Source: Sulfurimonas sp. (GTDB taxonomy: Bacteria; Campylobacterota; Campylobacteria; Campylobacterales; Sulfurimonadaceae). From it: 50,192 bases of DNA. The DNA lies in NCBI GenBank assembly GCA_026996295.1, contig JALWLL010000038.1, positions 3,228-53,419 of the forward strand, read 5' to 3'. Below are positions 1,723 to 43,889 of this stretch, in pieces. The number at the start of each line of letters is the position of its first letter. Position 1 is the stretch's first letter. The notes beneath the pieces were generated by a model. That model was not told the origin of the DNA. It was given only the letters and a program-made list of their open reading frames with translations, and made no database searches. The translations under genes and the position numbers were made by a program.

Positions 1723-1748
1723 AATACCCTTATTTGAGAAGTTTTTTC
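1714..1748 (+). terminator. rho-independent terminator hairpin between convergent genes
   Basis: CTCAAATAA at 1714-1722 and its exact reverse complement at 1730-1738 enclose a 7-base loop. On the plus strand a T-run follows at 1742-1747. The arms contain the stop codons of both convergent genes (1720-1722 plus, 1730-1732 minus). The stem is AT-rich, so efficiency may be moderate. On the minus strand there is no T-run after the stem. Confidence 0.6.
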
Positions 1749-2542
1749 ATAAGTTCTATGTGGTAACTCTCTTGGAAGTTGATGAAATTAAAGAACTTTG
1801 ATAGCTCTTCATCTTTTATGGCATCACTAAGCTCTTTGCACATCTCTTTTGCAGCTTCCTCTTCGGCTATCCCATCAACAATGAATTTTTGTATATCATC
1901 AACCACGTAGGTCATCTCATGCAACTCTCTTGGAAGAGCTAAGATACCAAGTTTTGCCATCATATTTCCAAAAGATTTCAAATGAAAATGGGATTCATCG
2001 ATAAGATCTTGAAATACATTGAACTGGGTTAGATCTGTTGTCCTTGCCTGCATATAGGCATATACCAAAATAAGCTCATACTCTTTGTAGGACTCTTCAA
2101 ACAAAAAAAGTGTCAGAGCATCGATCTGCTCCTGTGCCAGATTACTGTGTGGCCATTGCCTTTTCATGTTAAATGCAGTGACCTCTTTGTTGTTTGTTTC
2201 TTTTTTAAGAATTTCTGAGATATATTGGGTAAGGTAAGCATCATCACTTCTGAGTCTGAAACCAAGCTCATTTTGAGGATAATAGTTCTGTATGTTTTGT
2301 ATATCCTGTAAAAGTTCACTCAAAACTTCAAAAACAGACTCTTTTTTGTAGAGTATCATATCTCTGTCATAGTTATAGTTATTATTATCTTCTAAAACAG
2401 CTGTAGCGATCCATTTCATATGCCTAAAAGCGATAAGTGAAAAATCATAGAGTCTTGACTTGATCTCCTCATCGTTTATACTAAAAGAGGCAAAGGTGAT
2501 CCTGAGCCACAGTTGATGTTTTTGCTGAAACAATTTATCCAT
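1730..2542 (-). CDS. ferritin-like helical (possible di-iron) protein next to an IscU-like scaffold
   Basis: About 270 residues, all-helical, with no signal peptide. Several helices carry ferritin-type Glu/His pairs: FRHMKW near the N-terminus, EESYKEYE in the middle, DESHFH about 35 residues later, and QESYH near the C-terminus. This spacing suggests a four-helix di-iron or haem-oxygenase-like fold; iron binding is inferred. The start is the second ATG (2540-2542), because GAGGAG stands 7 bases before it; a longer frame to 2566 would put the site inside the gene. It overlaps the scaffold gene by 8 bases, so the two are translationally coupled and probably act together on iron or Fe-S clusters. 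The name of the family is not known to me. Confidence 0.65.
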   Translation of the reverse strand: MDKLFQQKHQLWLRITFASFSINDEEIKSRLYDFSLIAFRHMKWIATAVLEDNNNYNYDRDMILYKKESVFEVLSELLQDIQNIQNYYPQNELGFRLRSDDAYLTQYISEILKKETNNKEVTAFNMKRQWPHSNLAQEQIDALTLFLFEESYKEYELILVYAYMQARTTDLTQFNVFQDLIDESHFHLKSFGNMMAKLGILALPRELHEMTYVVDDIQKFIVDGIAEEEAAKEMCKELSDAIKDEELSKFFNFINFQESYHIELMKKLLK

Positions 2543-2999
2543 TTTCATTCTCCTCGTTGATATCACAGCTCTCTTTCATTTTTACAATATGAACTTCCTC
2601 TTTTTTGCCATTGATCAGATTTTCATAGTTTTTCATAGAAGCTATAAAGGCACTAAAAACGATATCTGCACAAACCTGTTGTTGGGCTGAGAGGTCTCCA
2701 AGCTTTTCGTGCATTTTGTTTATAGCCTTTTGAGCGTATTGAAGCTCATTACCTTTGATCATATCTGTAAACATAGAACCTATCACAACCGTATCCTGGC
2801 AACCGTTTGTTGCAAATTTGACATCTTTTACTGTCTCATCTTCTAGAAGTGTGTAAAATATAACATACTCACCTGTTTTTTCATCAGTAGCGACACCGAT
2901 GCCGTTTGCATTATCGAGCTTTCCATAATTTTTTGGATGCATAAGGTGTTCAAGAACCTCCGCATCCATCCCCTTGGGTAGTTTTACATCTTCAAACAT
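2535..2999 (-). CDS. IscU/NifU-N-like Fe-S scaffold protein with altered active site
   Basis: 154 residues. The N-terminal EHLMHPKNYGKLDNANG matches the IscU start (HYxNPRNxG). Of the three cluster cysteines of IscU, two are found: Cys67 in NGCQDT and Cys110 in QQVCAD. The first is replaced (KTGEY, with Thr42 where IscU has CGD), the usual Asp is Glu44, and the His before the last Cys is Val109. An extra Cys lies in the C-terminal tail (KESCD). The protein is therefore unlikely to hold a cluster exactly like IscU. It is followed, with 8 bases of overlap, by a ferritin-like gene. A possible TATAGT -10 element lies at 3029-3034 on the minus strand. Family membership is confident; function is open. 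Confidence 0.75.
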   Translation of the reverse strand: MFEDVKLPKGMDAEVLEHLMHPKNYGKLDNANGIGVATDEKTGEYVIFYTLLEDETVKDVKFATNGCQDTVVIGSMFTDMIKGNELQYAQKAINKMHEKLGDLSAQQQVCADIVFSAFIASMKNYENLINGKKEEVHIVKMKESCDINEENENG

Positions 3000-3171
3000 A
3001 ATGACTCTTTTATTTTATTTAAACTCATACTATATTTTATTATGATTAACATAAGAATAACTAAAAACTGTATAATTCCTTTTAATTTATAAGGCTTTAC
3101 TTTACCTGTGTATCCTGTATATTGTAGTTTTGAAGATAATGTTTTTTTCTTTTTTTTATCTGTCTTTAATC

Positions 3172-3203
3172 AATTTCACTGTAAATTTCTGGAATGTGAA
3201 ATT
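3172..3203. repeat. inverted repeat in intergenic region
   Basis: AATTTCAC at 3172-3179 is exactly repeated in reverse complement at 3196-3203, with a 16-base spacer. It lies just downstream of truA (minus strand), but no T-run follows in the minus direction, so it is not a classical terminator. The rest of the 3000-3221 gap is AT-rich, with T-tracts and a TATAAT at 3071-3076 on the plus strand that faces no gene. Confidence 0.35.
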
Positions 3204-3221
3204 AGATGCGAAAAAGTAGTT

Positions 3222-3932
3222 TTAATATTTGATGTTACTAAGGTAAAGCCCGTTAGAATCTGCTGGTTTTAGCTTGTAGTTCTTCTCACGGTTGAGCTGT
3301 TTTTGAATAGATTGCCCATCGAGTGTAAGCAGTGCGGCAACCATAAGCCTTATCTGTGAACGTAAAAAACCGTTGGCTTCAAAATAAAGCACTATATACT
3401 TTTTGTGTTTGTAGGCAAAGGCTTTGTAGATAATTCTTTTGGTGGAGTTGCTCTCACTTCCTGTTTTCATAAAGTATTGAAAATCATGCTCACCCACAAA
3501 AAGTTGTATGTTTTTTTGAACTCTTTTGTAGTCTATTGTATCTACAAAGGTTACGAGATCAGCTTCAAAGGGATTACAAGCACCTTCTTTGATAACATAC
3601 CTGTACACTCTTCGTTTGGCACTGTAGCGTGCGTGAAAATCATCATCTACTTTAGAGATACTTTTTATATGTATAGAAGTAGGCAGCATCTTGTTGAGTA
3701 CTGTGTGTAGTTTAAGTAAATCTGTCCAAAAGATCGGCAGATCAACATGGCACACCTGTCTTGAGGCATGTACACCTTTGTCTGTCCTTCCAGAAGCTAT
3801 CACTTTAGAGTCTATCCCTATCTTGCAAAGAACATGCTGGAGTGTACCCATAATCGTATTGGAGGATTCTTTTTGTATTTGAGAGCCTAAAAAATGGCTG
3901 CCATTATAGGATATGGTAAGTGCACAGCGCAT
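3222..3932 (-). CDS. truA: tRNA pseudouridine(38-40) synthase TruA
   Basis: TruA converts uridines 38-40 of the tRNA anticodon stem to pseudouridine. The 236-residue protein is of normal length. It starts with the family pattern LTISYNGSHFLGSQ and carries the catalytic block ASGRTDKGVHA, with nucleophile Asp51. FEANGFLRSQIRLMVAALL near the C-terminus matches the conserved FxGxxFLxxMVR region. It follows the LptF/G gene with no spacing, as the last gene of the minus-strand run from coaBC. The same neighbourhood is known from Campylobacter jejuni. Confidence 0.96.
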   Translation of the reverse strand: MRCALTISYNGSHFLGSQIQKESSNTIMGTLQHVLCKIGIDSKVIASGRTDKGVHASRQVCHVDLPIFWTDLLKLHTVLNKMLPTSIHIKSISKVDDDFHARYSAKRRVYRYVIKEGACNPFEADLVTFVDTIDYKRVQKNIQLFVGEHDFQYFMKTGSESNSTKRIIYKAFAYKHKKYIVLYFEANGFLRSQIRLMVAALLTLDGQSIQKQLNREKNYKLKPADSNGLYLSNIKY

Positions 3933-31936: not shown

Positions 31937-33364
31937 ATGAAACAGCTTACATCAACAGCAGGCAACCCAATAGGGGACAATCAGAACTCATTAACGGCAG
32001 GAGAAAATGGTCCTGTTTTAATGCAAGATTATTACTTGATCGAAAAACTTGCACACCAAAACAGAGAACGTATTCCAGAAAGAGCCGTCCATGCCAAAGG
32101 TTCGGCTGCTCATGGAAAGCTCACTATCACACATGATATTACCCAATACACCAAAGCAGATATATTTTCAGAAGTAGGCAAAGAAACTCCACTGTTTTTG
32201 CGTTTTTCAACAGTTGCCGGTGAAAAAGGAGCTGCTGATGCTGAGAGGGATGTTCGCGGATTTGCAATCAAGTTCTATACTCAAGAGGGGAACTGGGATT
32301 TGGTCGGAAACAATACCCCGGTATTTTTTATTGGGGATCCCTATAAGTTCCCCGATTTTATCCATACGCAAAAAAGAGATCCAAAAACCAATATGAGAAG
32401 CAATAGCGCTATGTGGGATTTTTGGTCTAAACATCCTGAGAGTCTCCATCAAACAACCATATTGTTTTCAGATCGCGGCTTGCCTACAAGCTACAGACAT
32501 ATCAATGGATATGGTTCACACACCTATAGCTTTATAAACCATAACAATGAAAGGTTTTGGATCAAGTTTCACTTTAAAACGCAACAGGGTATCAAAACGA
32601 TGACAAATGAAGAAGCAGGTGCAGTTATTGCCAAAGATAGAGAAAGCGCACAAAGAGATCTTTATGAAGCGATAGAAAATGGGAACTACCCAAAATGGGA
32701 TATGAAAATACAGATCATGACGCAAGAGCAAGCACAAAATCATGCAGATAATCCTTTTGATGTAACAAAAGTTTGGTCACATAAAGATTTTCCACTTATT
32801 GATGTGGGTGTTTTGGAGTTAAACAAAAATCCAAATAACTATTTTAATGAAGTGGAACAGGCCTCATTCAGCCCTTCAAACACAGTGCCAGGAATAGGTC
32901 TCTCTCCAGATAAAATGTTGCAAGCCAGAGCCTTTTCATATCCGGATGCACACAGGTATAGAGTTGGAACGCATTATGAGATGCTACCAATAAACAGACC
33001 CTTAAATGAGGTGGCCAATTATCATGCTGATGGTGCAATGAACTTTGGTGATATTCACAAAGAAAATGGAGTCAATTATGAGCCAAACAGTTTTGGGGGT
33101 CCAAAAGAAAACCATATCTATGATGAACCGGCCATAGAGTTGCACGGCGATGCTACAAGATATGACAGAACTCTCAACAACGACTACTTCAAACAACCAA
33201 GAGATCTGTTTCATTTGATGAGTAAAGAGCAAAAGCAACAACTTTTTTGCAATATAGCAGCTTCCATGGAAGGTGTGCAACAAAGTATCATTGATGAACA
33301 AATGAAGCTTTATGAGCAGGTTTCACCTGAGTATGCAAAGGGTGTTAAAGAGGCTTTGGGATGA
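31937..33364 (+). CDS. katA: catalase (small-subunit, haem)
   Basis: This enzyme disproportionates hydrogen peroxide. The 475-residue monofunctional catalase has catalytic His52 in [12 protein letters not shown], Asn125 in [10 protein letters not shown] and the haem-ligand Tyr in [25 protein letters not shown] and the NDPYKFP-like [15 protein letters not shown] are conserved. Its size places it in the small-subunit, clade 3 type used by Helicobacter and Campylobacter. No signal peptide is seen, so it is cytoplasmic or exported without one. The downstream ankyrin gene overlaps it by 4 bases. Confidence 0.98.
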
Positions 33365-33858
33365 GTATCAACATCACTGAAGAAGAGGAGCAAAGGTATG
33401 CTCAGCTTCAACTGATAGCTCTCAATTTTGCAAGAGACGGTAATACGCAAGAACTCAAAAAAATGCTTGATTATGGTATGAATGTCAATCTCTGTACACA
33501 TAACAATGATACACTTTTGATGCTTAGCTCATATAAAGGGCATCTTGAGCTCACAAAAATGCTTTTAGAATACGGAGCAGACATCAACAGAGTCAACAGT
33601 AGAGGGCAAAGCCCACTTGAAGGGGTTTGCTTTAAAGGTGATCTTGAAATGCTTAAGCTCCTTATTCAACATGGTGCTGAGCATAAGGGAAGAGCAATGA
33701 TGTACGCATCTATTTTTGGTAACAAAGATATTGTGCTGTATTTACAAAGCCTCGATGCAAGTTCTGCTTCATCTAAGTTTTTAGGTATAAGATTTGAATA
33801 TATAGCAGCTTTTACAAGTGGTGTCAGATCTCTTTTTTTTAAAAAACAAACAGCATAA
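33361..33858 (+). CDS. ankyrin-repeat protein coupled to catalase
   Basis: 165 residues with three to four ankyrin repeats at about 20-125, seen in [29 protein letters not shown] and [24 protein letters not shown] (both read in parts). No signal peptide. The start overlaps the katA stop (ATGA). The same arrangement occurs in C. jejuni (katA followed by Cj1386), where the ankyrin protein is reported to help haem reach catalase; that role is likely here too. The last 40 residues are not repeat-like and end in lysines. Confidence 0.9.
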
Positions 33859-43067: not shown

Positions 43068-43889
43068 ATGAAAAAACATATAACATCAGTCATTTCACAA
43101 AATTTTGGAAAATTTGCAAACAAAGAGTTTCCTAAGTGGTTTCAAAAAATAGTAAATAACTCCTATGTCAGATTAATGGGGCTGGATATGAGTGAGTTTC
43201 ATTCTCCTCAAACATACAGATCACTCAATGCACTTTTTACAAGAAAGCTCAAAGAGGATAGAAAATATTCACTTGATGCCGATGACTTTATATCACCTTG
43301 TGATTCCTTGATATCGGAGTGTGGTAAGCTTGTGCAAGATTATGCCCTTCAAATCAAAGGTATGCGCTACAAAACTGATGAACTTTTAGGTGAAAATTTT
43401 ACAGAAGATGAAAAAACTAAAGTGCACGATGGTACTTTTATAAATTTTTATCTTTCTCCAAAAGATTATCATAGATATCATATACCTATGAATTTAAAAG
43501 TTCTCAAGGCTGTACATATTCCGGGAAAATTTTACCCTGTAAACTTCCCTTCACTGAAAAAGCGTTTGAATCTTTTTATAGAAAATGAAAGGGTGGTACT
43601 GCAGTGTGAAACTTTTGATAAAAAGATCTTTTATATGGTACTTGTGAGTGCTTTAAATGTTGGTGTTATGCAAGTAAGTTTCGAGCCTAGGATCCAGACC
43701 AATGCCAATGTTGAAGGTGAACAGGTATATACATTTGACGATCTCTACCTAAATAAGGGTGATGATTTTGGATGTTTTGAAATGGGTTCAACTATTGTCA
43801 TTGTAGCACAAGAGGGTATGTTTGAAGAGCTTTTTGTAAAAGCCGGAGATAAGGTTCACTATGGAGAGACTATAGCCAAGTTACAATAG
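43068..43889 (+). CDS. psd: phosphatidylserine decarboxylase proenzyme
   Basis: Psd makes phosphatidylethanolamine in the inner membrane. The 273-residue proenzyme has FRSLNALFTRKLK-like pattern (YRSLNALFTRKLK), SPCDSLISECGK and the catalytic His region FINFYLSPKDYHRYHIP. HIPGKFYPVNFPSL is conserved. FGCFEMGSTIVIV near the C-terminus contains the Gly-Ser-Thr self-cleavage site that makes the pyruvoyl group. No processing residue is missing. GAGAAG lies just before the ATG. It ends just ahead of the hairpin shared with ychF. Confidence 0.95.
   Translation: MKKHITSVISQNFGKFANKEFPKWFQKIVNNSYVRLMGLDMSEFHSPQTYRSLNALFTRKLKEDRKYSLDADDFISPCDSLISECGKLVQDYALQIKGMRYKTDELLGENFTEDEKTKVHDGTFINFYLSPKDYHRYHIPMNLKVLKAVHIPGKFYPVNFPSLKKRLNLFIENERVVLQCETFDKKIFYMVLVSALNVGVMQVSFEPRIQTNANVEGEQVYTFDDLYLNKGDDFGCFEMGSTIVIVAQEGMFEELFVKAGDKVHYGETIAKLQ

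Follow-up and report, generated by a model that had tools for sequence, protein, structure and literature searches.

In Sulfurimonas sp. and in relatives from its order, a gene for an IscU-like protein with a rearranged set of cysteines lies directly upstream of a gene for a tandem ferritin-like protein. The best-supported reading of this pair, to which we give a probability of about 0.4, makes it an accessory iron/sulfur module, with a diiron protein that would feed or protect a remodelled scaffold; the binding of iron and of a cluster, an interaction between the two proteins and the direction of any transfer are what we infer. The pair lies in a stretch of 50,192 nucleotides, here termed the window (GenBank assembly GCA_026996295.1, contig JALWLL010000038.1, positions 3,228 to 53,419). 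Both open reading frames lie where an earlier sequence-only reading had placed them. The features are:

2535..2999, minus strand: IscU-like scaffold, 154 aa, stop at 2535-2537 (PF01592, predicted fold, residue counts)
1730..2542, minus strand: tandem ferritin-like protein, 270 aa from the ATG at 2542 (structure model, match to 9viw, ligand counts)
2535..2542, minus strand: overlap of scaffold stop and ferritin-like ATG, 8 bases, ATGGATAA (sequence)
2550..2555, minus strand: GAGGAG, Shine-Dalgarno-like, 7 bases 5' of the ferritin-like ATG (sequence)
3045..3065, minus strand: candidate upstream element, TTTAGTTATTCTTATGTTAAT / TTTAGTTANNCTTATGTTAAT, 5' of the operon (by eye)

The 8-base overlap given by the sequence-only reading is right if translation begins with the ATG at 2542, preceded by GAGGAG at a distance of 7 bases; an alternative in-frame GTG at 2566 would give 278 aa and an overlap with the scaffold of 32 bases. 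The two genes are probably translationally coupled. Fusion into one gene was considered and rejected: long open frames are found in a few genomes, and at the loci inspected the scaffold lies in another frame. The 3045-3065 element might be a promoter or regulator site; close variants stand at the same place, 5' of the scaffold gene, at several loci of the same genus (by eye). It has one match in the window versus 0.09 expected, and this is the sole perfect copy in the genome. A wider regulon acting through it was rejected, as a whole-genome search with up to three mismatches gave two matches (the perfect copy and one three-mismatch site), no more than the two of the reversed control. A search for RNA families and tRNAs found none in the window.

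How general is the pairing? The nearest named relatives of the window are metagenome-assembled genomes called Helicobacteraceae (L003, with a scaffold 97% identical), Sulfurimonas and Sulfuricurvum, from which the order surveyed was taken as Campylobacterales. A survey of 348 genomes of this order gave 138 partner matches, spread over 137 genomes; in 103 of these 137 the scaffold gene is adjacent on the same strand, always upstream (103/103), in ten families. The proposal that the scaffold is coupled to an iron- or oxygen-type protein thus stands as that of a conserved unit, and the separation of the two genes in most relatives, named beforehand as grounds for giving it up, is not what is found. 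A scan with the scaffold as query, one genome per species, gave 16 loci; the partner adjoins in all 15 from Campylobacterota, and the single Chloroflexota locus is without it. Within the family of the window, 82 of 151 genomes match the partner, one of them over just 22 residues. Phylum-wide, profile A4 matches 43 of 249 genomes, all 43 from the same order, an unspecified share of that sample lying outside the order.

The other partner matches number 35 of the 138. In 25 of them (23 in families f13 and f16, plus G244 and G185) the genome has no scaffold match, so that the ferritin-like protein would have a scaffold-independent use there; no scaffold lay nearby in any of ten solo genomes fetched (G165, G182, G221, G162, G185, G244, G209, G326, G335, G360). 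In G427, G201, G386 and G317 a broken, partial or contig-cut scaffold adjoins the partner. Both genes are present and unlinked in G448; in G401 the scaffold and a partner fragment are on different contigs and apparently unlinked; no scaffold match accompanies the partner in G443 and G456; the partner of G371 is at a contig end; and one match, in G384, is a second fragment. On the scaffold side there are 137 matches in 125 genomes, 103 next to the partner and 34 apart. About 28 of these 34 are taken to be other paralogues, by score, length and place (some of them having been fetched), and six are taken as the paired type: those of G448, G401, G386, G205, G354 and G446. The last three carry a three-Cys-type scaffold and no partner match, the cysteines having been read in G205 and G354. 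The scaffold reading frame is interrupted by a stop or frameshift in a few copies, e.g. in G006 and G427.

The outer neighbours differ across paired loci (TruA and LptF/G in the window); gene names are assigned by eye unless a family search is cited. A divergent radical-SAM-like gene is present at seven loci (L049-L052, L054, L057, L058). A psd-like gene follows the partner directly, with a gap of -4 to 32, at 16 of 16 tested loci from families f4, f6 and f7 (L081, L083, L085, L086, L088-L098, L108), and at no locus from other families, where some flanks are short. This gene resembles a phosphatidylserine-decarboxylase-like open reading frame of the window itself, at 43068-43889, about 40 kb from the pair. 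In f16 the solo ferritin-like gene (L069, L070) has a PdxA-like gene on one side and 2-oxoacid:ferredoxin-oxidoreductase-like genes on the other; a KdsB-like gene lies farther out. Elsewhere in the window, at 31937-33858, a catalase-like open reading frame overlaps an ankyrin-repeat-like one by 4 bases.

The scaffold passes the Pfam NifU_N cut-off (PF01592, 67.9 bits, cut-off 22) and falls below every NCBIfam equivalog cut-off: NifU_clost 80.8/187.9, SufU 42.6/92.5, NifU 41.4/273.3 and IscU 39.8/192.4 bits. Its AlphaFold model has a pLDDT of 84.0, with the C-terminal tail that carries Cys145 below 50. Foldseek places the model with 7c8m at E 1.1e-11, and the best solved structures are A. fulgidus IscU 4eb5, IscU 7c8m and A. 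aeolicus IscU 2z7e, all at Z 17.7. dN/dS against the nearest relative, L003, is 0.05 for the scaffold and 0.08 for the ferritin-like partner; four more distant comparisons gave 0.05-0.09 with dS near saturation, and two further ones gave no dS.

Alignment with the NifU of the same genome puts scaffold Thr42, Glu44, Cys67, Val109 and Cys110 at the NifU Cys, Asp, Cys, His and Cys, which bears out the replacements and the two retained cysteines described by the sequence-only reading. Residue counts come from an alignment of 105 scaffold-type rows, 101 of them distinct and 76 from loci with the partner; L140, L145, L146 and some partial rows lie outside it, and very divergent members may be missing since rows were collected with sequences and profiles of the family itself. 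Where 74 is the denominator, two rows (L044, L083) are cut by a stop or frameshift. Among the 76 distinct paired rows, position 42 is Thr in 40, Asn in 18, Ser in 17 and Ala in one. The three canonical cluster cysteines are thus never complete, the first being absent in 76/76, and the canonical Asp two residues past it and the His before the third Cys are both missing, with Glu44 in 76/76 and His at position 109 in 0/74. Cys67 is present in 76/76 rows and Cys110 in 74/74. To speak of 'two of three cysteines' was accurate for Cys67 and Cys110 but incomplete, as Cys145 of the C-terminal tail is equally conserved (74/74). His137 is found in 39 of 40 close rows and 52 of all 74 paired rows. In IscU, the LPPVK-type HscA motif stands before the third Cys; the window scaffold has LSAQQ there, and no LPPVK-like stretch is seen over 24 diverse rows, in which the segment is variable. 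What computation shows is a rearranged set of cysteines (67, 110, 145), together with Glu44, on an IscU fold. Because it has this fold but lacks the full canonical cysteine set, the protein is better said to work like an IscU than to be one.

The model of the partner is helical throughout, with a mean pLDDT of 93.0 and eight main helices, which may be read as two four-helix bundles. Its alignment has 84 rows, 78 labelled paired and six solo, a few of them being one genome under two locus names; the 78 are all rows outside the six solo loci and include L080-L083, which have no intact scaffold adjoining. Candidate diiron ligands of the C-terminal bundle, E154, E183, H187, E228, E258 and H261 (270-aa numbering), are present in 78/78 non-solo rows. 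In the six solo rows five of the ligands are retained and E183 is Asp in four. A metal site, the lack of which would have spoken against the original proposal, is therefore conserved as a candidate. Set against the diiron pattern E, ExxH, E, ExxH, helix B' carries E-S-x-x-H (E-x3-H) rather than the usual ExxH. In the N-terminal bundle H41 is kept and position 38 is Ala in 38 rows, Glu in 23 and Leu in 10; its site is mostly lost, leaving the full candidate diiron set to the C-terminal bundle. The ferritin-type Glu/His pairs claimed at the outset are real and stand in helices, and the full ligand set is confined to one bundle. Cys235 is present in 78/78 non-solo and four of six solo rows.

What is the partner related to? 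Among proteins of solved structure, PDB 9viw ('Bacterioferritin', 306 aa) alone is a strong relative by sequence, at 3.3e-16 versus profile A2. By fold the partner matches 3hl1 (CC_0557; Z 14.6, rmsd 3.0 A, 186 aligned), and the N-terminal bundle matches bacterioferritins at Z of about 10.8; this bundle fills the VIA fold list, and the identity of the C-terminal bundle rests on the 9viw sequence match. Foldseek with the partner model gave no match at E <=0.001 (best 0.029). Rubrerythrin (PF02915) scores 17.5 bits against the window partner, below its 22.8 cut-off, and matches 15 of 22 members of profile A2 at E <=0.1 (best 1.8e-4). It is the only Pfam family at E <=1 for the partner, and no RIC or hemerythrin-like family matched.

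Comparison with known systems brings out what is particular to the pair. With the IscU/NifU N-terminal domain (2z7e, 9wfy 'IscU', 4eb5, 7c8m) the scaffold has in common the fold and the second and third cluster-Cys positions; it differs in the first Cys, replaced by Thr, Ser or Asn (Ala once), in Glu for Asp, in the absent His, in the extra invariant tail Cys and in the coupling of its gene to a ferritin-like gene. The partner matches 9viw in sequence along both bundles and 3hl1 by fold. In alignment, the first bundle of 9viw carries ExxH motifs as well, where the site of the partner is mostly lost, and we know of no scaffold partner for either protein. The rubrerythrin match is weak and at the C-terminal helices, and, unlike rubrerythrin, the window partner contains one Cys only and no rubredoxin-type Cys pairs. 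RIC proteins are hemerythrin-like, consist of one bundle and are encoded by a gene that is not known to lie beside IscU, whereas the window partner is tandem and ferritin-like and its neighbouring scaffold is altered. RIC (YtfE/ScdA) is likewise a diiron four-helix-bundle protein, one reported to act with an IscU-type scaffold (PMC8117158); the site here is a candidate one. A literature search, judged by titles and abstract openings, found no description of an IscU-like/ferritin-like pair, and to judge from its sequences this looks like an undescribed iron-handling pair.

The host genome (2.1 Mb, 119 contigs, 100% complete) has its own NifU (143.5 bits) adjoining a NifS-like open reading frame (by eye). 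SUFBD gave no match in this genome, with the control positive in 14/14, and frataxin none in 199 genomes of the order, this one included, with the control positive in 1/14 (E. coli). As the NifS-NifU locus is present, the pair would be an addition to the NIF system, not a replacement. A link to nitrogenase as the main role was considered and rejected: a search found no nifD in the genome. Among 151 family genomes, the ferritin-like gene and nifD occur together in 39, the ferritin-like gene only in 42, nifD only in 22 and neither in 48 (Fisher p 0.046, kinship uncorrected, the 22-residue match of G033 omitted and presence scored on the ferritin-like gene alone).

Eighteen IscU-like proteins without an adjoining partner, here called type 2 (L077, at 3073-3612, and L109-L125), have Cys67, Cys110 and Glu44 in 0/18 and Cys145 in 17/18. 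Loss of cluster chemistry is therefore possible in this family, and a cluster device distinct from Isc, Nif and Suf, as the sequence-only reading proposed, is no more than a possibility. Nor can Cys145 be conserved solely as a canonical-site ligand. In a tree with a midpoint root and two very long outgroups, type 2 is one clade (100/99) inside a 45-row branch (100/100) that holds 25 paired rows. One reading is that the cluster-type residues were lost in a single event, in a copy already without its partner. Among 58 genomes of the genus of the window, both genes occur in one, the ferritin-like gene only in 27, type 2 only in 21 and neither in nine, type 2 being assigned by match profile with 12 of 22 genomes fetched and read; the two are near-exclusive there (Fisher 8e-8, kinship uncorrected). 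In family f4, type 2 and the ferritin-like gene co-occur (G188, G309).

What might the pair do? In the accessory iron/sulfur module, the candidate diiron protein would hold or supply iron and would consume O2 or peroxide beside the scaffold. The scaffold would accept sulfur from NifS on Cys110, and its Cys67, Cys110, Glu44 and Cys145 of the tail might together hold either a cluster or an intermediate of iron and sulfide; the product would go to repair or to particular client proteins, accessory to NifU. Iron donation from RIC/YtfE to IscU is a functional precedent, from a different protein family: YtfE is reported to interact with both IscU and IscS and to promote the formation of clusters in IscU (PMC8117158). 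The module has difficulties. The scaffold would have to work with no LPPVK-like stretch, no canonical His and no first Cys, and E-x3-H in helix B' is a departure from ExxH. Cys145 persists in 17 of 18 type 2 proteins and sits in the low-confidence tail of the model, the 25 solo ferritin-like genes do without a scaffold, and 34 of 137 scaffold-type matches stand apart from a partner. Three genomes have a three-Cys-type scaffold and no partner match, two (G443, G456) have the partner and give no match for the scaffold, and the psd-like neighbour at 16 loci is not accounted for. A bolder version, distinctly unlikely in our estimation, would make the pair a separate cluster-assembly station in an order that gave no frataxin match, with the third cluster Cys relocated out of the first loop and into a mobile C-terminal tail, and the tandem ferritin-like protein as dedicated iron donor and oxygen shield.

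The chief rival, unlikely but serious, turns the relationship around: the ferritin-like protein would do the work, as a diiron peroxidase, oxidase or oxygenase, and the IscU-like protein would be dedicated to it as a chaperone or metal loader and would build no Fe-S cluster. As 25 genomes carry the ferritin-like gene and give no scaffold match, it can be the primary component; the missing first Cys and His of the scaffold fit this idea, and the psd-like gene downstream at 16 loci might point to clients in a pathway of lipid metabolism. The invariant Cys67 and Cys110 of complete paired rows, however, are more in keeping with a chemistry of sulfur or clusters than with the handing-over of iron alone, and in three genomes a three-Cys-type scaffold is kept with no partner match. 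Could the scaffold be a sulfur carrier instead? Invariant cysteines and one invariant acidic residue suffice for persulfide transfer, and Cys145 on a flexible tail suits a shuttle, so that the protein might serve as a sulfurtransferase of the zinc type (a SufU-like use) that receives persulfide from NifS and is shielded from peroxide by the ferritin-like protein. SufU-type zinc sites include the first Cys and the Asp. Both positions are replaced here, the protein reaches 42.6 with the SufU model, whose cut-off is 92.5, and the genome has no SUFBD match, all of which makes this use improbable. Least probable is a pair that plays no part in assembly, being either a sensor of clusters or a regulator, or else a paralogue in decay. 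The unpaired branch without canonical cysteines and the stops or frameshifts in a few scaffolds (G006, G427) point that way; against it stand dN/dS values between 0.05 and 0.09 wherever a comparison gave one (six in all, dS mostly near saturation), the invariant residues of paired copies and presence across ten families of the order.

Where Fe-S cluster assembly obtains its iron has long been an open question, above all when frataxin is missing. A conserved pair of scaffold and putative diiron protein is a specific, testable candidate for such a source, and the rearranged cysteine set probes how far a 'three-cysteine' scaffold can be rebuilt.

Two smaller observations concern other unpaired scaffolds. 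A third altered IscU-like set (L079, L127, L128 in f10; L078, L126 in f6) has Cys67 in 5/5, Cys110 in 2/5 and no tail Cys at 145. At L076 (1614-3924) and L075 (60-2460), a partnerless scaffold lies after a TolC-like gene and directly before response-regulator-like and sensor-like genes (by eye).
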